NCBI GenBank assembly: GCA_023251095.1
Contig: JAHEZL010000002.1
Location: forward strand, 124,001 to 188,000
Direction of reading: 5' to 3'
From: Flavobacteriales bacterium
Lineage (GTDB): Bacteria; Bacteroidota; Bacteroidia; Flavobacteriales_C; GCA-002722245
DNA length: 64,000 nt
Shown here: one piece after another, positions 46,637 to 60,340 of the stretch
Numbering within the stretch: the first letter of the stretch is position 1
Layout of the letters: each line of letters opens with the position of its first letter
Translations under genes and position numbers: made by a program
The notes under the pieces: generated by a model
What the model was told of the DNA's origin: nothing
Database searches by the model: none
What the model saw: only the letters and a program-made list of their open reading frames with translations

Positions 46637-49600
46637 ATGTTGAGAAAAAAGTTCAAAATAGCGGCATTTTTCATTGCCTTTTTGTTTTCCTTTTCAGGAT
46701 TGCAGGCCGCCCGTTACTGGGTGGGAAATGGCGGTAACTGGAGCGATCCGGCACATTGGTCGAAAACCAGTGGCGGATCTGGCGGAGCATCTTTGCCGAC
46801 AGAATCAGATGCAGTGATTTTTGATGGCAACTCATTTTCACAATCCAATCAAAGTATAATTATTGATAGAAATGTAGCTGTTGCAGGAATGGATTGGCTT
46901 AAGGTAACTAATCATCCACGATTGGCTGGTGCCGCGCAATTTCAATTAACGTTATATGGACCTGTGTTCTTCCCTCAGAATTTAACTAATGATTTTGAAG
47001 GGAAGGTGCTTTTTGTATTTGCTACCCCTAGCTCTCCTGAAAGTAATTTCTATGACAATGATTTTAAGGGTGTAGTGGAAGGAAAATATGATCCTGAAAA
47101 TATTGTGCTTAAAAAAATTAAGAAAGCAGCTGGAAACCAGGTGTTGAGCGCTATTACCGATTTTACTGTTACGTACAACGACGCCGATTGCGGTTGCAAT
47201 GGGTGGATAAAGGTTGCTACGATTACAGGAGGTACAGCTCCTTTTACCTATTCCTACACTCCAGCGCAAGTAGGCGGCTATTCTGGCGAGCCTTCTGACT
47301 CTATATATAACTTGTGTCCTCAGACTTATGGGGTGAGGATAAGAGATACAGACGGACATCAAAGGCTTGAATTTCAAAATATCGCAGGTCCACCAACAGG
47401 TCCTTTTTCTATTGTGTTTGACCCAGTTGTAAATAACACATGTTTCCAAAGTTGTGATGGCCAGATTCCAATGTCTCAAGCAACAGGGGGATATTATCCT
47501 TATACCTATTTGTGGAATGACCCAGCTGCTCAAACAGATTCTATTGGAGATAATTTGTGTGCTGGAATTTATACTGTAACTGCTACCGATAATGCAGGTT
47601 GTGTGCAATCTTTTACCGATACCATCACTGAGCCTACACTTTTGGTTGCTTCAATTTTAAGTCAAACAAACGTAGATTGCGGAGGAAGGTCAACAGGCGC
47701 AGCAACAGGAACTGCATCAGGAGGAACCGCTCCATATACCTACAGATGGTATGATGCAGGTGGTACAATGGCTGCTGCAAAAGCAGGATTGGCTGCTGGC
47801 ACGTATCACGTTGAAGTTACTGATGCCAATGGTTGTTTGGATACTGCTACCGTGATTATTACTGAACCTACACCTGTTGTTATTAGCGCCAACACCGATC
47901 AAAATATAGTTTGTAACGGTGTTTGCATTGGTCAGGTATCGTATACAGGTTCGGGTGGAACAGGAGCACTTAGTTATTCGTGGTATGATATTGTTGGAAC
48001 ACCAACTACAACTCCTGTATCTAGTCTTTGTGCGGGAACTTATAATGTTGAAATTACCGACGCTAATGGCTGCAAGGACACAGCTACTACTTCTGTAACA
48101 AGTCCAGGTGCTTTGGTTGCAACAATAATTGCACACACTGATGTGCTTTGTCGCGGTTTGTGCAATGGGGATGCAACTGTTAGTGCTGCTGGTGGAGTTG
48201 CTCCATACACTTACGATTGGTACAATCTTTTTGCTCAAACCACTACGGTGGGAACGGGTATGTGTGCAGGCGCATCGAATGTTGAGGTTACTGATGCCAA
48301 CGGATGTAAGGATACTGCTACCATTGTAATTACTCAGCCTGCAACCACACTTTTTGCAAGTATTGTATCTCAAACTGACAACGTTTGCTTTGGCGATTGT
48401 TTGGGCGATGCCGTTGTTCGTTCCAGCGGAGGTACCGGTGCACATACTTACAATTGGTATGATACTCCCGGTTTGGAAACTGATACTTTTGCATCAAATT
48501 TATGCGCCAACACTTATCACGTTGAGGTGACTGATGGGAATGGTTGTTTGGATACAACTTCAGTTTCAATTACAGCACCAAGTGCTGTAGGAGCAAATTT
48601 TATTGACAGCATTCCTTTAAATTGTAGTGGCGATTGCAATGGATCTTTAACTATCGCAGGTTTTGGTGGTACAGCAGGATATACTTATTTATGGCAAGCT
48701 CCAATTGCAGGTCAAACAACTACGGTGGTTTCCAGTTTATGCGCCGCTACTTATAATGTTGATGTGACCGATGCTTTAGGATGTACGGGCACAAGCACAT
48801 ACACTTTATCAGCCCCGTCGGCTTTGACAGCAGCAATGGCTACTCAAAGCAATGTAAGTTGTAATGGATTATGCGATGGTCAGCTCATTGCAGGGCCATC
48901 TGGCGGTACTGCTCCCTATGCTTACAATTGGTATACTAATGCAGGATCAGCAGCGATTTCTGTGAGCTCTTTGTGTATAGGAACTTACAGTGTAGAGGTC
49001 ACTGATGCGAATGGTTGTATAGATAGCGTTGACGCAACGATCACCCAACCAGCAGTTTTAGTAGCGTCTATCGCGTCTTCTACAAATTTGGTGTGTGGAG
49101 CGGTATGTAATGGAGATGCCACAGCGGCAGCGGCAGGCGGAACAGCAGCTTACACTTATAATTGGTATGATGCAGCCGGACAAACTACTATCAAAGCTGT
49201 AAATTTATGTGGTGGAACTTACAATGTTGAAGTTAGCGATGCCAATGGCTGTAAAGACACGGCTCAAGTGCTTATTGCTGCGCCCGTAGCGGTGGTGGCA
49301 ACCATAACAACTTCTAACAATGTTAGCTGTTTTGGGGCATGTGATGGGAATGCAATAGCTTTAGGTACAGGCGGTGTTGCGCCTATAAGTTACAGCTGGT
49401 ACGATGCTCCTGGAACTCCAGCCGTTGCTAATGTTTCCAATTTATGTCCGGGAACCTATAATGTAGAGGTAAGCGATTTAAGCGGTTGTAAGGATACAGT
49501 TGCAATTGCAGTTACACAGCCTTTCGCACTTGTGTTAAATGCGGGCGTTCCAACCAATCCGAGTTGTAATGGACAATGTACCGGAGTTGCTACCGTTGCG

Positions 49601-52600
49601 CCGATTGGGGGAACAGCGCCATACACCTATAATTGGTACGACGCTGCGGGCCAAACAACAGCTACAGCATCAAATTTGTGTGCAGGAACATATAATGTGG
49701 AAGTAACTGATGCCAATGGCTGTTTAGATACGCTCACGTTTGTTATCACCGAACCTGCCACACCGTTGGACATCACTTTGGTATCTTCTACTCAGGCTAC
49801 TTGTAATGGAATATGTGATGGAACAGCTACGGTTTTAGCCAGTGGAGGAACAGCAGGGTACACATATTCTTGGTATGATATGGTTGGACTTCCAACTGCG
49901 GCTGCACAAAACGCAATGTGTTTTGGTACTTTTCACGCTGAAGCCACTGACGTTAATGGCTGTAAGGACACTGTAGCAGTGGTGATCACTGCTCCTGTGG
50001 TGGTAGTTGCTGACATCACCGACAGCACCAATTTAACTTGTAACGGTATATGTATTGGAGACGCTACAGTAGCTGCTGTTGGTGGGACTTTACCTTATAC
50101 ATATGATTGGACTACGGCGGGCAATCAAAGCACGGCAATCGCTACCAATTTATGTAGTCAGATGCACCAAGTAACAGTCACTGATGCAAGTGGCTGTATA
50201 GATATTGATAGCGTAAACATTACTCAGCCTACTCCTGTATTGGGAACAATAATCGATTCAACCAATATTTCTTGTAATAGCTTATGTGACGGTGATGCAA
50301 CAGTAGATGGTTCAGGTGGGAATGGGCCTTATACCTATGTATGGTATGATGTTGCTGGAACACCTGCAACGGTTTTAGTAAACGCATTGTGTGTAGGAAC
50401 TTATCATGCTGAAATTACTGATGCAAGTGGTTGTTTAGATACTGTTTCTGTAAACATTGTTGAACCAACAGGATTAACTGCTTCGATATCTAAAGTAGAC
50501 ATTACCTGCAACGGATTGTGCGATGGAACGATGACAGCATTGCCAACTTCTGGAGGAACTGCACCTTATAGTTATAATTGGTATGATGCTGGAGGACAAA
50601 GCACTATTAGTATTAGTGGATTGTGTGCTGTAACAGCCAATGTAGAAGTAACCGATGCTAATGGTTGTTTGGATACTGCTGCTGCAACAATTGTTGAGCC
50701 TACAGATCTTACTTCTTCCGTTAGTGCTTCATCTACCCCAACTTGTGTTGGAATTTGTAACGGTTCAGCAACGGCTAGTCCTGCTGGAGGAACGGCTCCG
50801 TATAATTACAATTGGTATACCTCAGGAAATCAAATTACACCAAATGCGGTAAACATGTGTTCAGCTATACACTATGTTGAAATTACAGATGCCAATGGCT
50901 GTTTGGATACCCTTACTGTACCTATAATTGCTCCGGTCGTTGTAGTTGCTACAATCACTGATTCTACTGTAACGGCTTGTAGTTCGGTATGTATTGGTAC
51001 CGCCACAGTTTCAGCTTCTGGTGGTGCGATTCCCTATACATATGATTGGTTTACTGCAGGAAATCAAAATACAACAGTTGCCACTAATTTGTGTGTAGGG
51101 ATCAATCAGATAAGAGTAATAGATAACAATGGTTGCGTTGATACTGCCAGTGTACTAATTGGAATTTCCAGCACTCCTCTGGTGGTTACCGTTGTTGATT
51201 CCACCGGTGTTTTATGTTTTGGCGATTGCAACGGTGATGCTACCATTTTAGCGACAGACGGAACTGCACCATATATTTATGATTGGTACACTGCAGGAAA
51301 TCAAAATGGGATTACTGCCACCGTTCTTTGTTCGGGAATACACAGTGTATCTGTCACCGACGCGAATGGCTGTATAGATACTGCTAGCGTAGTGATCATA
51401 GCACCCACTCAAATTTCATTGAATTTATCGGCAAACAATCCAGTTTGTAACGGCGATAATAACGGTACAATATCTTCGGTTCCTTCTGGCGGAACAGCAC
51501 CTTATACACACCATTGGAGCAATGGGTCCGTAGCAAATGTTTTAGTAAATCTTGGTCCGGGAACATACATCGATACAGTTTCAGATGCCAACGGTTGTTT
51601 CGTAATCGATTCTGTAATACTGATTGATCCTGTGGTTGTTCAAGCTAATGCGGTTGCAACTTCTGTGTCTTGTCCTGGAATGGCGAATGCAATAGCATAT
51701 TCCATTCCTTCGGGAGGAACTGGTCCATTTAGTTTTTTATGGAGTACAGGAAGTGTCAATGATAGTATCACAGGATTAGCAACCGGTGTTTATTCTGTCA
51801 CCGTTACCGATAGTGTTGGATGTTCTGATGTTTCATCAGTAACAGTAACAGCGCCGGCTGCTTTGGCGCTTTCCGTTTCTCATAACGACGCTGTTTGTAT
51901 TTGTAATGGTGATGCTACTGTCACTGTTGGCGGAGGTACTGCACCGTATGCTTATTTATGGAATGATCTTTCTTCACAAACTGTAGCAAACGCAATTAAT
52001 CTTTGTGCGGGAGTTTACAGAGTAAGAGTAACAGATTCTTTGGGTTGTAAAGATAGTATACCAGTGAGTGTTTTAAACACTTCTACATTAACTGGGAATG
52101 TAGTAGATAGTATCCCTGCAACTTGTTTCACTTCTTGCGATGGATCAGGGATGGTTGCGGCTTCATTGGGACAAGCACCGTATACTTATTTGTGGAATGA
52201 TGTTGCCGCTACTCCTAATGATACAGCTACAAATTTATGCGCTGGAAATTATATTGTGAAGGTGACCGATGCAAACTCTTGTATTTACAATATTAACGTA
52301 ACCATTACTTCGCCACCAGCGGTTAACGGAATTAGTTCAGTCATTATGCCTTTGTGTTTTGGTGATTGTAACGGAACCGCTACATTGGTTCCTTCAGGTG
52401 GATCTGGCGGACCTTATACGCACAGTTGGGACACTGGATCGAGCAATGATTCCATTTTTAATCTTTGTGCTGCAACGTACAACGACACCATTACCGATGC
52501 CGCCAGCTGTACCGGAATAGTAGCCGTTGTTGTTAGTCAGCCAACCCTCCTCACACTAGCACCTACAAAAACCAACATAACCTGTAACGGCGCCGGAAAT

Positions 52601-55600
52601 GGAAAAGCCAATGCCAATGCTGCTGGTGGAACTACTCCTTACGCTTATGTTTGGGACGATGCAGCAGTAAGCACAATCGCAAATGTCACTGGTTTGGTGC
52701 CTGGAAAATATCACGTTACAGTAACCGATGCCAATGGATGTACAAGCATTGATTCTGTAACCATAACAGAACCTTCTTTATTGACTTCGCAAATTGTTGA
52801 TTCTACAACAGTAAATTGTAATTGTGTGGGATTGGCTACAATAAGAGGAAGCGGGGGAACTTTGCCATACACTTTCCTATGGAATGATCCTGCTGCACAA
52901 ACCGATTCCACAGCAACTGCGCTATGTGCCGGAATATATACTGGTTCTGTTATTGACGCCAATGGTTGTATCGCTGCATCCCCTGTTCATATTGTTGATA
53001 TTTCAGGTTTCTCGGCATCAATTACCTCTACTACTAATTTAAAATGTAATGCGGTTTGTATAGGAAGTGCTTCAATTACTGCTGTGGGAGGAACATTACC
53101 TTATTCTTATTCATGGAACGATCCAGCATCTCAAACTACTGCAACAGCTAGTAATTTATGTGCAGGAAATTTAACCGGTATTGTGACTGATCAGGCAGGT
53201 TGTACATTTGTTTTGCCAACCACTATCACCGAACCTGGTGCGATTGTGATTTCTGTGGTTACCACTGACGTGAGCTGTTCTGGACTTTGCGACGGTCAAT
53301 TATTGGCTACTGTTAGCGGAGGAACCGGATCAACTTATACCTATTCATGGAATGATCCATTGAATCAAAACACTTTGTTGGCGGATAGTTTATGTCCTGC
53401 TACTTACACTTTAACAGTTAATGATTCTGTGGGCTGTGTTAAAACATCCACCAGAGCTATATCAGAGCCATTGCCTTTGATTGCATTTATTTCTTCTGCA
53501 TCAAATGTTAGCTGTAATGGAAATTGCAATGGAGCAATTAATGCTATTGGTGTGGCAGGAACAGCGCCATATACTTACTTATGGAATACCGCACAGACTA
53601 CTAAAAACATTAGCGGACTTTGTCCGAATACCTATACTTTAACTGTTACGGATGCTCATGGTTGTGTTGACGACTCGGCTCAGGTAATTACTGAACCGCC
53701 GGTATTGAATGCCTTTTTGGTAGACAGCACAAAAATTACATGTAATGGATTATGTAATGGTATCGCCACCGTCGGTGCTAACGGAGGAACAAGTCCTTAT
53801 GCATATTCATGGTATGATTTCCCGGGTGGTCAAAACACTGCAGTTGCCAATAACTTATGTGCTCAAACCTACCACGCAAAAATTACGGATGCCAATGGTT
53901 GTTTGGATACCACTCAGGTGAATTTTGTTCCACCGGCTGCGCTGAGTTTAACTTTAATATCTAAAACTGCTGCAAAATGTAATGGCGATTGTAATGGTAC
54001 TGCTGTGGTTTTGGGATCGGGAGGCACGGGTCCACTCACTTATTCATGGGTTGCCGGGCAAACCGGTACGAATCCAACCACCTTATGTGCGGGCAATAAT
54101 ACTGTTACTGTAACAGATTCTAATAATTGTCCTAAAACACTCGTTGTTGCAATCGCTGAACCTGCCTTGAAAGTAAAAGTTCTGGTCATTGATACTGTAC
54201 ACTTATTGTGCGCGAGTATTTGTGATGGTACAGCAACCGCTGCTGCAAGCGGAGGGAATGCGGGAGGATACACTTATCAATGGAATGATCCATCGGCTCA
54301 AACAACAACGAAGGCTACAGGATTGTGTGCCGGACCTCTTCAAATTAAAGTCACCGATACCAAAGGGTGTAAAGATTCGGCTATTGTGGATATTAATAAG
54401 ACCAATGCTTTTAGCGTAACTATCGTTCCAACTAATATTTTATGTCATGGTGATTGCAATGGTGCTGTTAAAGCAGTGACTAATGGAGGTGTTGGATCTT
54501 CTAGTGTTGCATGGATTGGTCCGGGAATTACGGTAGTGAATAAATCATTGAAAACGGTGAAAAACTTATGTACAGGAAATTATATTGTAACTGCCATTGA
54601 TCAATCTTCAACAGGTTGCCCTCAAACAAAAAATCAATTCCTGAGTGACCCTCCTTTGTTGACTCCGGGCATTGGTTCCGACAGCACCAATATTTTATGT
54701 AGTGGAACTTGTACAGGAACAGCTACAGCAGTAGGTATTGGCGGAACACCGGGTTATACTTTTAAATGGAATGATCCTGCCGCACAAACAACAGCTAAAG
54801 CGGTTGGCTTGTGTGCCGGTCAGCACAAAGTGGATGTAACCGATGCCAATGGTTGCGTGAAACCTGCTTACGTGAATTTAACGCAGCCTTCCGCTATAGT
54901 AAGAATGAATACTACTACTGCGGCTTTATGTACCAATACGAATGAAGGAACAATTGATGAAACTGTTGCAGGTGGCGTTACTCCTTATACTTATTCATGG
55001 ACGGGTCCAAGTGGTTTCACTTCATTGATTCAAGATCCTTCGAGTTTGTATCCGGGGAAATATTATCTGACGATAAAAGATAAAAACCTTTGTATCAAAA
55101 AAGATACTGCCACTGTTGCCGCCGTTACTTTTATTGATGCCAACGCAGGAAATGACACTACTATTTGTAATCAGGATACAGTTACTTTGAATGGTACAGG
55201 TGGACTCGCTTTCTCATGGAGTACAGGTGTTACCACGCCTTCCATTACTGTTGTGCCGTCGGGCACCAAATCATATTATTTAACAGTGACCAGCGCGGGC
55301 TGTATCGATAAAGACACCGTTACCATTACTGTAAATCCTAAACCAACAGCCGACATCTCCATGGCAAAAGACATTATATTGGAGGGAAGTTCTCAGATTT
55401 TATTTGGTAGCGGAGCCGGTATCGGCGGAACTTATGATTGGTTACCCCCGCTGAGTTTGAATGACCCAACCTTACAAAATCCAACAGCTACGCCGTTTAA
55501 AAACACTATTTATTATTTAACAGTAACTACTGCCGACGGCTGTACCGATTCGGCATCAGTATTACTGAAAGTAGCCAAAGGCATTGTTTTCCCTGATGGA

Positions 55601-55843
55601 ATCACACCTAACGGTGATGGTAGAAATGATACCTGGGTGATTGATTTAATTGATCAGTTTCCTCAGTGTAAAGTAGAAATTTTTAACCGTTGGGGACAAC
55701 AGGTTTTCCAGTCGTCGGGCTACACTAAAAACTGGGACGGATTATTTAACCATATCCCTTTACCGGTTGGAACGTATTACTATGTAATTGATTTGGGTCC
55801 GGGCATGCAAAAATATACCGGTCCGATAACCTTAATGAGATAA
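46637..55843 (+). CDS. giant SprB-repeat adhesin with T9SS type B C-terminal domain
   Basis: A 3068-aa cell-surface protein. A signal peptide (about residues 1-24) is followed by the SprB-type start RYWVGNGGNWSDPAHWS. From about residue 180 to 2830 there are about 34 SprB repeats (hand count), averaging 78 residues, each with C-x-G-x-C-x-G, SGGTAPYTY-W, LCAGTY and TDANGC landmarks. Two Ig/PKD-like domains (about 2833-2980) precede an 85-residue gliding-motility C-terminal domain (TPNGDGRNDTW ... VGTYYYVIDLG), the type B T9SS signal. SprB proteins are mobile adhesins propelled along gliding cells. The stop overlaps the porP/sprF start by one base, so they are translationally coupled. An AGGAGA lies 11 bases before the ATG. 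Confidence 0.93.
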   Translation: MLRKKFKIAAFFIAFLFSFSGLQAARYWVGNGGNWSDPAHWSKTSGGSGGASLPTESDAVIFDGNSFSQSNQSIIIDRNVAVAGMDWLKVTNHPRLAGAAQFQLTLYGPVFFPQNLTNDFEGKVLFVFATPSSPESNFYDNDFKGVVEGKYDPENIVLKKIKKAAGNQVLSAITDFTVTYNDADCGCNGWIKVATITGGTAPFTYSYTPAQVGGYSGEPSDSIYNLCPQTYGVRIRDTDGHQRLEFQNIAGPPTGPFSIVFDPVVNNTCFQSCDGQIPMSQATGGYYPYTYLWNDPAAQTDSIGDNLCAGIYTVTATDNAGCVQSFTDTITEPTLLVASILSQTNVDCGGRSTGAATGTASGGTAPYTYRWYDAGGTMAAAKAGLAAGTYHVEVTDANGCLDTATVIITEPTPVVISANTDQNIVCNGVCIGQVSYTGSGGTGALSYSWYDIVGTPTTTPVSSLCAGTYNVEITDANGCKDTATTSVTSPGALVATIIAHTDVLCRGLCNGDATVSAAGGVAPYTYDWYNLFAQTTTVGTGMCAGASNVEVTDANGCKDTATIVITQPATTLFASIVSQTDNVCFGDCLGDAVVRSSGGTGAHTYNWYDTPGLETDTFASNLCANTYHVEVTDGNGCLDTTSVSITAPSAVGANFIDSIPLNCSGDCNGSLTIAGFGGTAGYTYLWQAPIAGQTTTVVSSLCAATYNVDVTDALGCTGTSTYTLSAPSALTAAMATQSNVSCNGLCDGQLIAGPSGGTAPYAYNWYTNAGSAAISVSSLCIGTYSVEVTDANGCIDSVDATITQPAVLVASIASSTNLVCGAVCNGDATAAAAGGTAAYTYNWYDAAGQTTIKAVNLCGGTYNVEVSDANGCKDTAQVLIAAPVAVVATITTSNNVSCFGACDGNAIALGTGGVAPISYSWYDAPGTPAVANVSNLCPGTYNVEVSDLSGCKDTVAIAVTQPFALVLNAGVPTNPSCNGQCTGVATVAPIGGTAPYTYNWYDAAGQTTATASNLCAGTYNVEVTDANGCLDTLTFVITEPATPLDITLVSSTQATCNGICDGTATVLASGGTAGYTYSWYDMVGLPTAAAQNAMCFGTFHAEATDVNGCKDTVAVVITAPVVVVADITDSTNLTCNGICIGDATVAAVGGTLPYTYDWTTAGNQSTAIATNLCSQMHQVTVTDASGCIDIDSVNITQPTPVLGTIIDSTNISCNSLCDGDATVDGSGGNGPYTYVWYDVAGTPATVLVNALCVGTYHAEITDASGCLDTVSVNIVEPTGLTASISKVDITCNGLCDGTMTALPTSGGTAPYSYNWYDAGGQSTISISGLCAVTANVEVTDANGCLDTAAATIVEPTDLTSSVSASSTPTCVGICNGSATASPAGGTAPYNYNWYTSGNQITPNAVNMCSAIHYVEITDANGCLDTLTVPIIAPVVVVATITDSTVTACSSVCIGTATVSASGGAIPYTYDWFTAGNQNTTVATNLCVGINQIRVIDNNGCVDTASVLIGISSTPLVVTVVDSTGVLCFGDCNGDATILATDGTAPYIYDWYTAGNQNGITATVLCSGIHSVSVTDANGCIDTASVVIIAPTQISLNLSANNPVCNGDNNGTISSVPSGGTAPYTHHWSNGSVANVLVNLGPGTYIDTVSDANGCFVIDSVILIDPVVVQANAVATSVSCPGMANAIAYSIPSGGTGPFSFLWSTGSVNDSITGLATGVYSVTVTDSVGCSDVSSVTVTAPAALALSVSHNDAVCICNGDATVTVGGGTAPYAYLWNDLSSQTVANAINLCAGVYRVRVTDSLGCKDSIPVSVLNTSTLTGNVVDSIPATCFTSCDGSGMVAASLGQAPYTYLWNDVAATPNDTATNLCAGNYIVKVTDANSCIYNINVTITSPPAVNGISSVIMPLCFGDCNGTATLVPSGGSGGPYTHSWDTGSSNDSIFNLCAATYNDTITDAASCTGIVAVVVSQPTLLTLAPTKTNITCNGAGNGKANANAAGGTTPYAYVWDDAAVSTIANVTGLVPGKYHVTVTDANGCTSIDSVTITEPSLLTSQIVDSTTVNCNCVGLATIRGSGGTLPYTFLWNDPAAQTDSTATALCAGIYTGSVIDANGCIAASPVHIVDISGFSASITSTTNLKCNAVCIGSASITAVGGTLPYSYSWNDPASQTTATASNLCAGNLTGIVTDQAGCTFVLPTTITEPGAIVISVVTTDVSCSGLCDGQLLATVSGGTGSTYTYSWNDPLNQNTLLADSLCPATYTLTVNDSVGCVKTSTRAISEPLPLIAFISSASNVSCNGNCNGAINAIGVAGTAPYTYLWNTAQTTKNISGLCPNTYTLTVTDAHGCVDDSAQVITEPPVLNAFLVDSTKITCNGLCNGIATVGANGGTSPYAYSWYDFPGGQNTAVANNLCAQTYHAKITDANGCLDTTQVNFVPPAALSLTLISKTAAKCNGDCNGTAVVLGSGGTGPLTYSWVAGQTGTNPTTLCAGNNTVTVTDSNNCPKTLVVAIAEPALKVKVLVIDTVHLLCASICDGTATAAASGGNAGGYTYQWNDPSAQTTTKATGLCAGPLQIKVTDTKGCKDSAIVDINKTNAFSVTIVPTNILCHGDCNGAVKAVTNGGVGSSSVAWIGPGITVVNKSLKTVKNLCTGNYIVTAIDQSSTGCPQTKNQFLSDPPLLTPGIGSDSTNILCSGTCTGTATAVGIGGTPGYTFKWNDPAAQTTAKAVGLCAGQHKVDVTDANGCVKPAYVNLTQPSAIVRMNTTTAALCTNTNEGTIDETVAGGVTPYTYSWTGPSGFTSLIQDPSSLYPGKYYLTIKDKNLCIKKDTATVAAVTFIDANAGNDTTICNQDTVTLNGTGGLAFSWSTGVTTPSITVVPSGTKSYYLTVTSAGCIDKDTVTITVNPKPTADISMAKDIILEGSSQILFGSGAGIGGTYDWLPPLSLNDPTLQNPTATPFKNTIYYLTVTTADGCTDSASVLLKVAKGIVFPDGITPNGDGRNDTWVIDLIDQFPQCKVEIFNRWGQQVFQSSGYTKNWDGLFNHIPLPVGTYYYVIDLGPGMQKYTGPITLMR
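47180..55100 (+). repeat. tandem coding repeats of the SprB adhesin
   Basis: About 34 degenerate units of roughly 235 bp in tandem. Recurrent DNA phrases include gttgaagttactgatgccaatggttg and ggtggaacagctccatatac variants. Most units encode four cysteines; units 3, 19, 20, 24 and 34 lack cysteines two and three together, and unit 1 lacks the last one. Near-identical units could recombine and change repeat number. Confidence 0.85.
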
Positions 55844-57045
55844 TGAAGCATCTAATTAAAATATCAGCGATTGTATTGTTGCTCTTCTCCACAGCAAGGG
55901 CACAGCAGCTTCCGTTGTATTCACAATACATGATGAATCGCTTTATTGTCAATCCGGCTGTGGCGGGAACCGAAGATTATTTTACGGTTGCTACCAACAA
56001 CAGATATCAATGGGCAGGAATTACCGATGCTCCAAGAACTCATATCTTAAGTGTGCAAGGACCTCATGCTACAAAAAACATAGGATTTGGAGGAGCAATT
56101 TTTTCTGATGTTACCGGCCCGACTTCCCGTACAGGAGCTTATTTTACTTATGCTTATCATTTTAATCTTACACGCAGCAGCAAATTGTCGCTGGGCTTGT
56201 CGGGAGGCTTACTTCAGTTTAAAGTGGACGGTACTCAAATCACTTTGAAAGACGCGGGAGATTTTGTGATCACCAATTCGGTACAATCGGTGTTGATTCC
56301 CGATTTCGGATTTGGTGCTTATTGGTATACCGACAAATCTTATGTAGGAATTTCGGTGCCGCAATTCATTCAAAATAAAATTGAGTTTTTTAATACCACA
56401 ACGATGTCGTTGAGTCGCCTGACCTCGCATTATTTTATCAATGCCGGTCATAGATTTCAGGTGAGCAATGATTTTGAAGTGGAGCCTTCCGTATTGTTGA
56501 AATGGGCCTATCCAACCATTCCTCAGATTGATTTCGGCGCTAAAGTAATTTATCAGGAGTTTTTATGGGTCGGCGCGGCTTACAGAACTCAGGATGCTTT
56601 TTCTTTTATGTTGGGTTATAAAACTAAAAACGATAAATTATTGTTTGGCTATTCTTATGATCAGCCGCTCAGCAGTATCAGCAAGTACAGTTTCGGAACA
56701 CATGAAATTATGGTGGCTGCAAGATTTGCTAATGCAAGATCGCACAGAAGATATAGCAAAGCGGAAGACGGTAAAATAGATGTTGCCGAATCGGAATTAA
56801 TAGAAGACAAAAGCACAAAAACCACAGTATCATCTGATGCAGAAATTGCGCGTCAGAAAAAAATCTCTGAGCTCAATCAAAAGGATAAAGCGCTGCGAAA
56901 TAAAGTGCGTAATTTAAGAGAGCAAGCGGAGGCTTTGGGCTTAAATCCTGCTGATGCGCAGTTTGAATATTCAAAAGAATACAATGCTGCCATCAGTGAA
57001 ATCAAGAATGTTTATCTAGAAAAGCAAAATCTGGAGAATCAATAA
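55843..57045 (+). CDS. PorP/SprF-family T9SS outer-membrane protein
   Basis: A 400-aa protein of the PorP/SprF family, which helps type B T9SS cargo reach or stay on the surface. A signal peptide (about 1-20, ending ARAQ) is followed by the family start QLPLYSQYMMNRFIVNPAVAGTEDYF and beta-barrel-like strands with alternating hydrophobic residues to about 310. The last about 70 residues (IARQKKISELNQKDKALRNKVRNL; landmark) are a predicted coiled coil, an addition to the basic fold. It overlaps the giant adhesin stop by one base. SprF is required for SprB export in Flavobacterium johnsoniae; the same pairing is inferred here. Confidence 0.92.
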   Translation: MKHLIKISAIVLLLFSTARAQQLPLYSQYMMNRFIVNPAVAGTEDYFTVATNNRYQWAGITDAPRTHILSVQGPHATKNIGFGGAIFSDVTGPTSRTGAYFTYAYHFNLTRSSKLSLGLSGGLLQFKVDGTQITLKDAGDFVITNSVQSVLIPDFGFGAYWYTDKSYVGISVPQFIQNKIEFFNTTTMSLSRLTSHYFINAGHRFQVSNDFEVEPSVLLKWAYPTIPQIDFGAKVIYQEFLWVGAAYRTQDAFSFMLGYKTKNDKLLFGYSYDQPLSSISKYSFGTHEIMVAARFANARSHRRYSKAEDGKIDVAESELIEDKSTKTTVSSDAEIARQKKISELNQKDKALRNKVRNLREQAEALGLNPADAQFEYSKEYNAAISEIKNVYLEKQNLENQ

Positions 57046-57201: not shown

Positions 57202-57873
57202 TTAATTCTTTCCTTCCGGTCTGAATGGAAATGCCCACGAAGTCAACGGTCCGATTTTTCTCGTTTGAATCCACACTTTTCCTTCTCCCGTGAAACGGCA
57301 AACCAAACCTTCTCCTGAAAAGAAGAGCGATTTATATCCGCCGAAACGCGTTACCGAATAAGATAAATTTCCTGTGAAGGCCACGATGTTTCCGGTGTCT
57401 ACCACATAGGAATCTTTTACATCAATTTCAATCACACCGCCAAAGCTGTTGAACCACAAATCACCTTGTCCGGTGCACTGCGCTAAAAATAATCCTGCGC
57501 CACTAAAAAAACCTTTGAATCCCTGCCATTTTGAATTCACTGTTACCGAAGGAGCAGAAGCAACAAAAGCCGAACTCTGCAAATACAAAGTTTCTGAGCC
57601 GTTCATCGGATAATGAATCAAATCGCCGGGTGCAGAAGGTGCGATTTTAATTTCAGCATCACCGTTTTCTGCTGTGAAATCATTAATGAAAATAGATTCT
57701 CCGGTGAATAATCTTCCCAAACCACCTTTCATTTTGGTTTTCATTTTGAGGTTGGTGTCCATCGTTGCCATGGCAGAGGCTTCTACTTTTAAAGTTTTGC
57801 CTGACGGGATTTTTACTGTGAGCAAAGCGAAATCCGGTTTGCCGTCGATATGATGTTCGAAAGTATTTTCCAT
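57202..57873 (-). CDS. AIM24/TIGR00266-family protein, copy 3 of the operon
   Basis: A 223-aa protein of the AIM24 (TIGR00266) family, a triple beta-prism-like fold without known enzyme activity. Landmarks: GLGRLFTGESIFINDFTAE, APGDLIHYPMNG, GFKGFFSGAGLFLAQCTGQGDLWFNSFGG, DSYVVDTGNIVAFTGNLSY and FFSGEGLVCRFTGEGKVWIQT. It is the third of three tandem paralogs, 2 bases after the previous one. No signal peptide is present. The yeast relative Aim24 is a mitochondrial inner-membrane protein; bacterial roles are not established. Confidence 0.88.
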   Translation of the reverse strand: MENTFEHHIDGKPDFALLTVKIPSGKTLKVEASAMATMDTNLKMKTKMKGGLGRLFTGESIFINDFTAENGDAEIKIAPSAPGDLIHYPMNGSETLYLQSSAFVASAPSVTVNSKWQGFKGFFSGAGLFLAQCTGQGDLWFNSFGGVIEIDVKDSYVVDTGNIVAFTGNLSYSVTRFGGYKSLFFSGEGLVCRFTGEGKVWIQTRKIGPLTSWAFPFRPEGKN

Positions 57874-57875
57874 TT

Positions 57876-58553
57876 TTATCTTGGTGTTAAACTAGGGGTT
57901 AGGGCTGATCCGAAAGCATTTTCATTGTGCGACTGGCACCATACGGTGCCTTTTCCTTTGAAGCGGCAAATCAATCCCTCTCCTCCGAAATAGGAATTGA
58001 TCCAGCTGGATCCTGCTGTGCCTATGCTGAAATTTAAAGTCTCCTGAAAAGCAACAATATGCCCTGTGTCTACTACATATTCTCCATCCACATGAATAGG
58101 ATAAATGGCACCGAAGGAATTTAAGATCACTGTTCCTTTTCCCGAAACACCCAGCCAGAATGCACTTTCGCCTGAGAACAAAGATTTAAATCCCTGCCAG
58201 TTGAACTCCACATTTACATCGTGTGCCGATCCAACATAAGAACCCGCCTGAACAATTAATTTGTCGCCGTTCAATTCATAGGTAAACATATCGCCGGGAA
58301 GAGTTGATCCCAACCATACTGTTCCGCCTTGCGCACCTGCGGTAAAGTGATTCATGAAAAAGCTTTCACCTGACACCATTCTTTTAATGGCTTTCATGAT
58401 GCCGCGTGAATTTTTTTTATGCGTTGTAGTTTCAACGTGTAAATTATCGCTCATCGCTATCATCGCTCCCGACTCTGCGGTAAGCACTTCGTTGGGTTGC
58501 AGAGTCACTTTTGCAGCGGCTGCACCCGGACCTTTTTCTATTTTAACTTCCAT
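57876..58553 (-). CDS. AIM24/TIGR00266-family protein, copy 2 of the operon
   Basis: A 225-aa AIM24-family protein. Landmarks: VSGESFFMNHFTAGAQGGTV, STLPGDMFTYELNG, GFKSLFSGESAFWLGVSGKG, DGEYVVDTGHIVAFQETLNF and YFGGEGLICRFKGKGTVWCQ. The same three-fold pattern of G-E-x-(F/L) hairpins occurs in all three neighbours, which therefore arose by tandem duplication, although they have diverged well beyond recent copies. It differs from copy 3 in a basic loop after residue 40 (ETTTHKKNSRG). Function unknown. Confidence 0.88.
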   Translation of the reverse strand: MEVKIEKGPGAAAAKVTLQPNEVLTAESGAMIAMSDNLHVETTTHKKNSRGIMKAIKRMVSGESFFMNHFTAGAQGGTVWLGSTLPGDMFTYELNGDKLIVQAGSYVGSAHDVNVEFNWQGFKSLFSGESAFWLGVSGKGTVILNSFGAIYPIHVDGEYVVDTGHIVAFQETLNFSIGTAGSSWINSYFGGEGLICRFKGKGTVWCQSHNENAFGSALTPSLTPR

Positions 58554-58562
58554 AAAATCTTT

Positions 58563-59222
58563 TTAAAAATAACGGTTCAACCATGATGTTAATCCACTCA
58601 CACTGCGTGATTGAATGATGATTTTTCCTTTTCCTTCCACCCGTGTTACCAATCCTTCGCCACCAAAAAAGCTGGAAAAAATCCCACCCGACAATTGTGT
58701 TTTTAATTTCATTTGAGGTTCGTAACCCACCAAATGGCTTGAATCCACTATGTATTCACCGTCGATTTCTTTTTCTATCAAAGCGCCGTAAGCACCAAAA
58801 ATTACTTTTCCGGTTCCCGATACTTGTAGTTTAAATAAACCTTCGCCTCCGATGAAAGAGCTGATACCGGCCCATTTCACGCCCAATTTAATTCCTGGTG
58901 TTGAGGCAACATAAGCACCGCCTTCCAAACAATACGACTGATCATTCAACTCCAAAACTTTCATGTCGCCCGGAGTTGGTTGCGTTAATGTTAAGCGCTG
59001 ATCCGCCGAACTGTTGTTGGTGAAATGATTCACGAAAAAACTTTCTCCGCCCACGTATTTTTTTACCAAGCCGCCAATGATCCCGCCATTTGGTTTCGCT
59101 ACAATAGTGATTCCTGCTGCCATACTCGCCATTGCATCTGCTTCGGCGATGATGGTTTCACCGGGTTGTAAATCAACGTTTACATAAGCGAAGGCAGGTT
59201 TTCCTGTGATGTTTATTTCCAT
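58563..59222 (-). CDS. AIM24/TIGR00266-family protein, copy 1 of the operon
   Basis: A 219-aa AIM24-family protein, first of the three tandem paralogs and 2 bases after the M48 protease stop. Landmarks: YVGGESFFVNHFTNNSSAD, TQPTPGDMKVLELND, GISSFIGGEGLFKLQVSGTG, GEYIVDSSHLVGYEPQMKL and SFFGGEGLVTRVEGKGKIII. The three copies could form a heterotrimer, as the fold itself is a three-part prism; this is speculation. No signal peptide, so a cytoplasmic or membrane-associated location is expected. Confidence 0.88.
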   Translation of the reverse strand: MEINITGKPAFAYVNVDLQPGETIIAEADAMASMAAGITIVAKPNGGIIGGLVKKYVGGESFFVNHFTNNSSADQRLTLTQPTPGDMKVLELNDQSYCLEGGAYVASTPGIKLGVKWAGISSFIGGEGLFKLQVSGTGKVIFGAYGALIEKEIDGEYIVDSSHLVGYEPQMKLKTQLSGGIFSSFFGGEGLVTRVEGKGKIIIQSRSVSGLTSWLNRYF

Positions 59223-59224
59223 TT

Positions 59225-60340
59225 TTATTCTTTGTCTAAATCGGTTTTCAATCGTTTCTTAAATGTATCAAAAGAATTTTTAAAGACACTAAACTTTGTT
59301 TTAATGCCTTTTGTTTTTGAAGTGAGGTTCTCGATTCTTTCCTGTGTTGCGGGATGTGTGCTGAGAATTTCAGTAATTTTTTCAGTGTCTTTTGCTTCGG
59401 GATGTTCCTTCTGCAATTTTTTAAAAAAGCTGATCATTCCTGAAGGATTGATGTCGGCTTTCAATAAATATTCTAATCCTTTTTCATCTGCTTCGGTTTC
59501 ATATTCTCGGCTGTACATCAATGATGATAAGCTTCCTCCGGCTTGTGCCAGTGTTCCGAAAAGAGCTGATGCATCACCCACTACAGCCGATAACACCACG
59601 AAAATCCCAAGGTTAGAAACCAATCCGCGGATATGATGGCGCTCCGTAACGTGTGAAATTTCATGTCCCAAAACACCACACAATTCTTCCCACGATGAAG
59701 ATTTAGCAATCAATCCCGAATGAATAACGATGTTCCCTCCAGGCAATGCAAAAGCATTTAAAGTAGGATCTTCAATGATGAAAAATTTAAAATGAAAGGA
59801 AGTATCACCTACTGCTTTCACCAGTGGCTGCATGGTTTTGGTGAGTTCGGCAATGAGCAAAGAATCTTCAACTATTTTATGTCCGAGCGTAACCTGATCA
59901 AACAATTGATCTCCTACTTCTCTTTCCCATTGTGGTGGAACCTGATTGGCTACTGCGCGCACCATTTGTGATCGGAAGAGAAATAAACAGAGAATTATCA
60001 AAATGAAAAATCCGGCGATGCCTGCAAAAACCGACCAATTGAAAACTCTTTTTTTATTCACGTCTTTCACACTTTTTTTCGCGTGATCGTGGTAATGTAA
60101 ATTAGGATCTTTCAGTATTTTTTTATCGGTGGTGTAAAAAGTAATATCGGGAAAACGCGGATGTTTAAAGTAAATCAAACGATCGGAAGCACCTCCTAAA
60201 CTGATCTCGAGATCATAAATCGGAAAGCGGATTTTTTCAGTTTCGAGATTGAAAATAACATCACTTAATCCCACTTCAACTTCAATTCCTTTGCGTCCGC
60301 CTTCAAAACGGTTGGATATAGCAACTCCTTGGTAAATCAT
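59225..60340 (-). CDS. M48-family zinc metallopeptidase
   Basis: A 371-aa membrane-anchored M48 (Ste24/HtpX-like) protease. The first about 90 residues form a beta-rich cytoplasmic domain (FEGGRKGIEVEVGLSDVIF), then one transmembrane helix (about 98-120), then the protease domain. The zinc motif is GHEISH in VLGHEISHVTERHH, the third ligand Glu lies in YETEADEKGLEYL, and LSTHPATQERIENL closes the domain. It leads an apparent operon with three AIM24-family genes, each only 2-9 bases apart, which suggests a joint role in membrane protein quality control or processing. Confidence 0.9.
   Translation of the reverse strand: MIYQGVAISNRFEGGRKGIEVEVGLSDVIFNLETEKIRFPIYDLEISLGGASDRLIYFKHPRFPDITFYTTDKKILKDPNLHYHDHAKKSVKDVNKKRVFNWSVFAGIAGFFILIILCLFLFRSQMVRAVANQVPPQWEREVGDQLFDQVTLGHKIVEDSLLIAELTKTMQPLVKAVGDTSFHFKFFIIEDPTLNAFALPGGNIVIHSGLIAKSSSWEELCGVLGHEISHVTERHHIRGLVSNLGIFVVLSAVVGDASALFGTLAQAGGSLSSLMYSREYETEADEKGLEYLLKADINPSGMISFFKKLQKEHPEAKDTEKITEILSTHPATQERIENLTSKTKGIKTKFSVFKNSFDTFKKRLKTDLDKE

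Follow-up and report, generated by a model that had tools for sequence, protein, structure and literature searches.

SprB-type adhesins bear load in the gliding and attachment of Bacteroidota. To our knowledge, no explanation has been given of how rods of at least 100 nm bear force without unfolding. Here we analyse a SprB-repeat adhesin encoded in a window of 64,000 nucleotides (positions 124,001 to 188,000 of contig JAHEZL010000002.1, Flavobacteriales bacterium, assembly GCA_023251095.1; the host genome comprises 3.6 Mb in 43 contigs). The protein resembles Flavobacterium johnsoniae SprB and other PF13573 adhesins in its SprB repeats, its type B sorting domain and the adjacent gene for a PorP/SprF-family partner, a likeness that does not imply orthology. 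Its units carry up to four cysteines, designated C1 to C4 in order along the unit. The pattern of these cysteines makes it very likely that the protein is a surface rod adhesin, exported by the type IX secretion system (T9SS), of immunoglobulin (Ig)-like SprB units with predicted C2-C3 bonds inside the units and predicted bonds from C1 of one unit to C4 of the next, C1(n)-C4(n+1).

The best match in the PDB, both by sequence profile (E = 1e-34, partial alignment) and by fold, is GhpA of the Aureispira grappling hook (9FLP to 9FLY, 9G8B), which is also a T9SS-type chain of tandem Ig-like domains. The aligned segments of GhpA contain C1-like (ICEG, ICSN) and C4-like (QGC, NGC) cysteines, C2 and C3 not being among those segments; its solved structures may already display an inter-domain bond from C1 to C4 of the neighbour. 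In Siglecs, an inter-domain disulfide links Ig domains 1 and 2. That bond likewise joins neighbouring Ig domains, but it is single and located in a short receptor, whereas the bond predicted here is repeated along dozens of domains. Gram-positive pilins are reported to be stabilised as an adhesive fibre by isopeptide bonds inside Ig-like domains (e.g., PMC3132780); these Lys-Asn bonds lie within domains, in contrast to the inter-domain disulfides predicted here. A literature search that reached few subscription journals found no report of disulfides between SprB repeats.

Co-occurrence of C2 and C3 within units

The adhesin comprises a signal peptide, a Cys-free N-terminal region, 34 SprB-type units, two Ig-like domains and a sorting domain (Table 1). 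In the alignment of the 34 units, units 3, 19, 20, 24 and 34, and no others, lack both C2 and C3; the remaining 29 keep both, and no mixed unit is observed. The chance that two five-unit sets coincide is 1/C(34,5) = 3.6e-6 under random placement, which ignores the relatedness of the units. C1 is present in 34 of 34 units and C4 in all except unit 1, and the units hold 125 of the adhesin's 129 cysteines. An earlier note on this DNA had described the joint gain or loss of C2 and C3, this distribution of C1 and C4, and a total of about 125 repeat cysteines, all of which the alignment bears out. Units 1, 21 and 25 (at 47159, 51857 and 52778) have the spacing C1-x-C2 and not C1-x-x-x-C2; all three keep C3, and units 21 and 25 keep C4.

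The comparison set comprises 95 arrays with ~2,200 units from ~60 other Bacteroidota genomes, the sources being the own genome, its family, ten named metagenome-assembled genome loci and ~45 genomes of other Bacteroidota families. Cysteines were called by loop region, which removed spurious mismatches that strict column calling produced at C1 or C4 residues shifted by a few positions. Two calls were left uncounted because of unread bases, a C2-only unit of L105 (at C3) and a C1-less call in L102 (at C1). In a first set of 546 full units, 317 have both C2 and C3, 227 have neither, 2 are C3-only and none is C2-only. In the wider set, both residues occur in 1187 units and neither in 1016. The earlier note had also stated that other SprB repeats usually carry only the C1/C4 pair, which is half right: 46% of the units do, and 54% have all four cysteines, a ratio that is not a phylum-wide frequency, the sample having been drawn by similarity to the window adhesin.

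The listed mismatches number 16. Nine are C2-only calls in which the cysteine was misaligned; they fall in Ig-like domains that are not of the SprB type, in truncated units or in a degenerate unit. The other seven rows are C3-only and represent one homologous unit (L065, L068, L137-L140 and L142, of which L140 duplicates L065). In this unit (residues 1535-1611 in L065 and 1544-1620 in L068), a cysteine has been gained after W-V/T-G, within the loop that comes after strand C. The replacement lies in a nearby loop (e.g., WVGTC or TGPAC) and apparently takes the place of C2 as the partner of C3, as would be expected if C3 needs a partner. Thus, the only genuine units with one of the two residues carry a substitute for C2.

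In a mean-field coupling analysis covering 1,871 pairs of adjacent units (effective number, 1,551), C2-C3 was the top coupling in the repeat, with a robust z of 76 that remains at 66-71 after removal of the window's own order or of the proteins with double losses described below. Because the two residues co-occur almost without exception across ~2,200 units and form the strongest direct coupling, the predicted C2-C3 disulfide inside the unit, as originally proposed, is strongly supported.

Relation of C1 and C4 between neighbouring units

The same note had assigned C1 and C4 of one unit to a second internal disulfide. Losses of the two residues within a unit are independent (both present in 2085 units, C1 only in 38, C4 only in 29, neither in 1; p = 0.42). 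In contrast, loss of C1 from a unit goes with loss of C4 from the unit that directly follows it (both in 1864 pairs, C1 only in 1, C4 only in 4, neither in 8; p = 1.2e-18), which contradicts the intra-unit assignment. The reverse relation, in which C4(n) pairs with C1(n+1), was rejected (p = 0.27).

The eight double-loss junctions occur in seven proteins of six lineages (L154, L102, L104/L151, L164, L161 and L070) and consist of adjacent unit pairs of the form -CCC CCC- or ---C C---. Several C1-less units, at residues 437-510 and 1046-1125 of L102, 1218-1293 of L104 and 90-163 of L151, have an extra cysteine pair on strands F and G (e.g., GQNCVTITDANGCQDSICVII), which probably represents an added F-G disulfide. 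A similar pair is located at residue 454 of L070.

The ends of the array bear on the same question. In the window adhesin, every domain from 1 to 35 has C1 and every domain from 2 to 36 has C4, and a chain of C1(n)-C4(n+1) pairs therefore closes exactly. With 35 C1, 35 C4, 29 C2 and 29 C3 residues, 128 of the 129 cysteines close into pairs, and the leftover residue, Cys3011, is located in the sorting domain. In this adhesin and its relatives, C4 is missing from the first unit, which keeps C1, and C1 is missing from the last Ig-like domain, which keeps C4. Array ends in the comparison set were read by eye where the true N-terminus is visible, leaving out truncated and mixed-domain arrays. None of the 17 arrays that lack C4 in unit 1 has a mature cysteine within ~45 residues upstream, whereas 14 distinct arrays with C4 in unit 1 carry a close upstream cysteine, in many cases immediately behind the signal peptide (QAQC or a similar sequence in L110, L108, L099, L134, L136 and L133) or a few residues before unit 1 (L106 and L107). 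As read from these sequences, the array ends provide an independent test of C1(n)-C4(n+1) pairing, with an outcome that appears to favour it.

Couplings and predicted fold

The couplings that follow C2-C3 connect positions of the F-G hairpin (55-69, 57-67 and 59-65) and place strand A parallel to strand G (10-72 and 7-70). Further pairs link strands C and F (33-56), strands B and E (21-45), and the BC and FG loops (27-60 and 28-62). Together, these pairs describe an Ig-like sandwich in which strands A and G run in parallel and the BC and FG loops come together.

The coupling between C1 at position 12 and C4 at position 64 of the next unit (C12-C64') ranks first among 5,645 inter-unit pairs (z 19.4; z 18.5 without the window's order), and the same-unit pair C12-C64 ranks 405th of 2,556. 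Weaker inter-unit couplings (12-28', 12-29', 13-28', 75-62' and 75-26') fit the same interface.

An AlphaFold2 model of units 11-13, built from a 74-row alignment, has a mean predicted local distance difference test score of 96.3, a predicted template-modelling score of 0.79 and linkers free of low confidence. A Foldseek search matched tandem Ig chains, with GhpA in first place. In the model, C1 is located after strand A, C2 just before strand B, C3 between strands E and F, and C4 immediately ahead of strand G. In the Ig topology, such positions lie at the C-terminal pole for C1, C2 and C3 and at the N-terminal pole for C4. In the modelled chain, we infer that C2 and C3 of the same domain can meet, as can C1 and C4 of neighbouring domains; C1 and C4 of one domain would be unable to do so because they occupy opposite poles of the predicted fold.

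Evidence against the proposed inter-unit bond and alternative explanations

Several observations weigh against the C1(n)-C4(n+1) bond or against disulfide formation in general. Four of the five C1(n)/C4(n+1) mismatches, comprising all of the C4-only ones, come from a single alternating array in L160 (open reading frame L160_-_796, residues 500-2027), in which ---C units without C1, C2 and C3 alternate with four-Cys units. All of the L160 units keep C4; the array departs from the inter-unit rule, and some of its C4 residues are apparently orphans. The fifth mismatch, in L164, is probably a shifted cysteine (DATHC). At the array ends, five arrays have a unit 1 with C4 but lack a cysteine close upstream, and three of the five have an extra cysteine inside the unit. 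C1 and C4 are nearly invariant, and their inter-unit coupling rests on the eight double-loss junctions: when the seven proteins are removed, the peak drops to background (z 6.0, rank 2), so the coupling is not independent of the co-loss table. Regarding the oxidation machinery, DsbB was not detected in the own genome, and VKOR was found in 0 of 18 SprB-rich genomes, although proteins with more than 100 paired cysteines are encoded there; the sole DsbA-family match starts without a signal peptide and looks cytoplasmic. F. johnsoniae is reported to form periplasmic disulfides (PMC12635249).

Three other explanations of the pattern were considered. The near invariance of C1 and C4 in every unit would also be expected if both disulfides were inside the unit, C2-C3 together with C1-C4. 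This arrangement is very improbable: same-unit C1 and C4 show 38 and 29 single losses against one double loss (p = 0.42), the inter-unit co-loss is near exact, an orphan C1 in unit 1 and an orphan C4 in domain 36 would be left in the window protein and its relatives, and the couplings and strand order place the two residues of one domain at opposite poles. The joint loss of C2 and C3 could alternatively reflect two unit lineages, four-Cys and two-Cys, that spread by duplication without physical contact between the residues. Most of the two-Cys units of the window have two-Cys orthologues at the matching place in relatives, and some arrays consist almost entirely of one unit type. However, when 311 units from relatives of the window were placed on a tree with the C2/C3 columns omitted, at least 25 label switches were required (mean of 76 after shuffling), each of which changes C2 and C3 together. 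As read from this tree, the C2/C3 state is one that follows descent in part yet has changed many times, both residues together. In addition, the nearest neighbours of window unit 3 are four-Cys units from within the same adhesin (59% identity), the C2-C3 coupling is direct, and replacement of C2 is accompanied by another cysteine in a nearby loop. Descent without contact is thus given little credence.

It is likewise hard to credit that the cysteines serve as ligands of a metal or cofactor, or as free thiols for intermolecular cross-links. The missing DsbB of the own genome and VKOR of the 18 genomes, which means that no known periplasmic oxidation pair was detected, would be in keeping with such roles, as would the L160 cysteines that lack a partner under the inter-unit rule. 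By contrast, disulfides would be expected to give just such a strict pairing in twos, the unit alignment shows no His or other set of ligands conserved along with the cysteines, and the 128 array cysteines close exactly into pairs. We therefore prefer the internal C2-C3 bonds combined with C1(n)-C4(n+1) bonds.

Predicted mechanics of the rod

In the arrangement with C2-C3 and C1(n)-C4(n+1) bonds, C2 at the start of strand B would bond C3 in the E-F turn of each four-Cys unit, and C1 in the A-B loop at the C-terminal pole would bond C4 of the next domain, located in the F-G loop at the N-terminal pole, all the way along domains 1 to 36. The predicted total of 29 intra-domain and 35 inter-domain disulfides would use 128 of the 129 cysteines. 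No point of the array would lie outside a disulfide loop, and the rod would hold together after one cut at any position of the array. From C4(n) to C1(n+1), ~27 residues (e.g., 1029 to 1056) would span two domain lengths, roughly 8 nm, and would be almost taut in the folded state; the covalent network would therefore have almost no slack. Pulling would add little length even with melted domains, yielding an almost inextensible rod that resists unfolding under load. The C2-C3 bond would shorten the path through the domain from 52 to about 18 residues. Both the formation of the C1(n)-C4(n+1) chain and its mechanical consequence are deduced here from the sequences. The earlier note had proposed a disulfide-locked rod; a rod of this kind is likely, but through bonds between units and not through the same-unit C1-C4 bonds that the note had envisaged. 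At 3.7-3.9 nm per domain, we estimate that the rod of 36 domains is roughly 130-140 nm long.

If the prediction is correct, the repeated inter-domain disulfide would explain how the rod bears load and why the first and last domains differ in their cysteines. The rule that C1(n) goes with C4(n+1) can be checked in any SprB array. It is a reasonable, moderately favoured expectation that SprB-type adhesins across Bacteroidota are topologically locked chains, with C1(n)-C4(n+1) bonds throughout, closed ends, no titin-like unfolding under the forces of gliding or adhesion, survival of single proteolytic cuts, and C2-C3 as an optional addition in some domains. Combined with the SprF-GldK disulfide (PMC12635249), the chain would suggest that a covalent path of disulfides runs from the track to the tip in species having that link.

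Genomic context

The adhesin scores above the curated cut-off of PF13573 and is thus a member of the SprB-repeat proteins. Its C-terminal region matches PF13585 with 87.3 bits and TIGR04131 with 67.5 bits (cut-off 35), which identifies it as a T9SS type B substrate. The PorP/SprF-family gene lies directly 3´ of the adhesin gene, an arrangement that defines an adhesin-carrier pair of the SprB/SprF type.

Table 1. Features of the adhesin locus (positions in the window).
Feature	Coordinates	Strand	Details
SprB-repeat adhesin	46637..55843	+	3068 aa, 129 Cys; PF13573 527.5 bits, 22 stretches
Array of 34 SprB-type units	47159..55132	+	~78 aa each; by cutting and alignment
Unit 1	47159..47410	+	C1 (aa 185), C2 and C3, no C4; upstream region Cys-free
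Unit 3	47645..47878	+	without C2 and C3 (unit alignment)
Unit 19	51413..51637	+	without C2 and C3 (unit alignment)
Unit 20	51638..51856	+	without C2 and C3 (unit alignment)
Unit 24	52550..52777	+	without C2 and C3 (unit alignment)
Unit 34	54896..55132	+	without C2 and C3 (unit alignment)
Ig-like domain 35	55133..55351 (boundaries approximate)	+	C1 (aa 2844) and C4 (aa 2889)
Ig-like domain 36	55352..55588 (boundaries approximate)	+	C4 only (aa 2969), no C1
CHU_C / type B T9SS C-terminal sorting domain	55589..55831	+	single Cys, aa 3011
PorP/SprF-family partner	55843..57045	+	400 aa, zero Cys; PF11751 262.6 bits, TIGR03519 277.4 bits
aa, amino acids.

In the gliding track of F. johnsoniae, SprF is bound to GldK via a C-terminal Cys-X-Cys, a disulfide reported in 2025 (PMC12635249). 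The window partner differs in being Cys-free and thus has no such tail, which makes it inappropriate to class the adhesin with gliding adhesins of the F. johnsoniae type. The C-terminal Cys-X-Cys was also not seen in the other 13 PorP/SprF matches of the own genome. That genome encodes a GldK match above the cut-off (558.9 bits) and a GldJ-like protein (418.9 bits) below the cut-off of 458.2.

Among the own-genome PorP/SprF proteins (L121, L122, L125, L128 and L129), several have a single cysteine 4-5 residues from the C-terminus (PCPSF, PCNRLF, CPKYL and PCDIY). This is reminiscent of Porphyromonas gingivalis PorG, the single cysteine of which bonds PorK (PMC12635249). Instead of a Cys tail, the window partner has a charged, possibly coiled-coil C-terminal extension that is common to L051, L053 and L056 of the same genus. 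Downstream, on the minus strand (57202-60340), three tandem AIM24-family genes lie beside an M48 peptidase gene.

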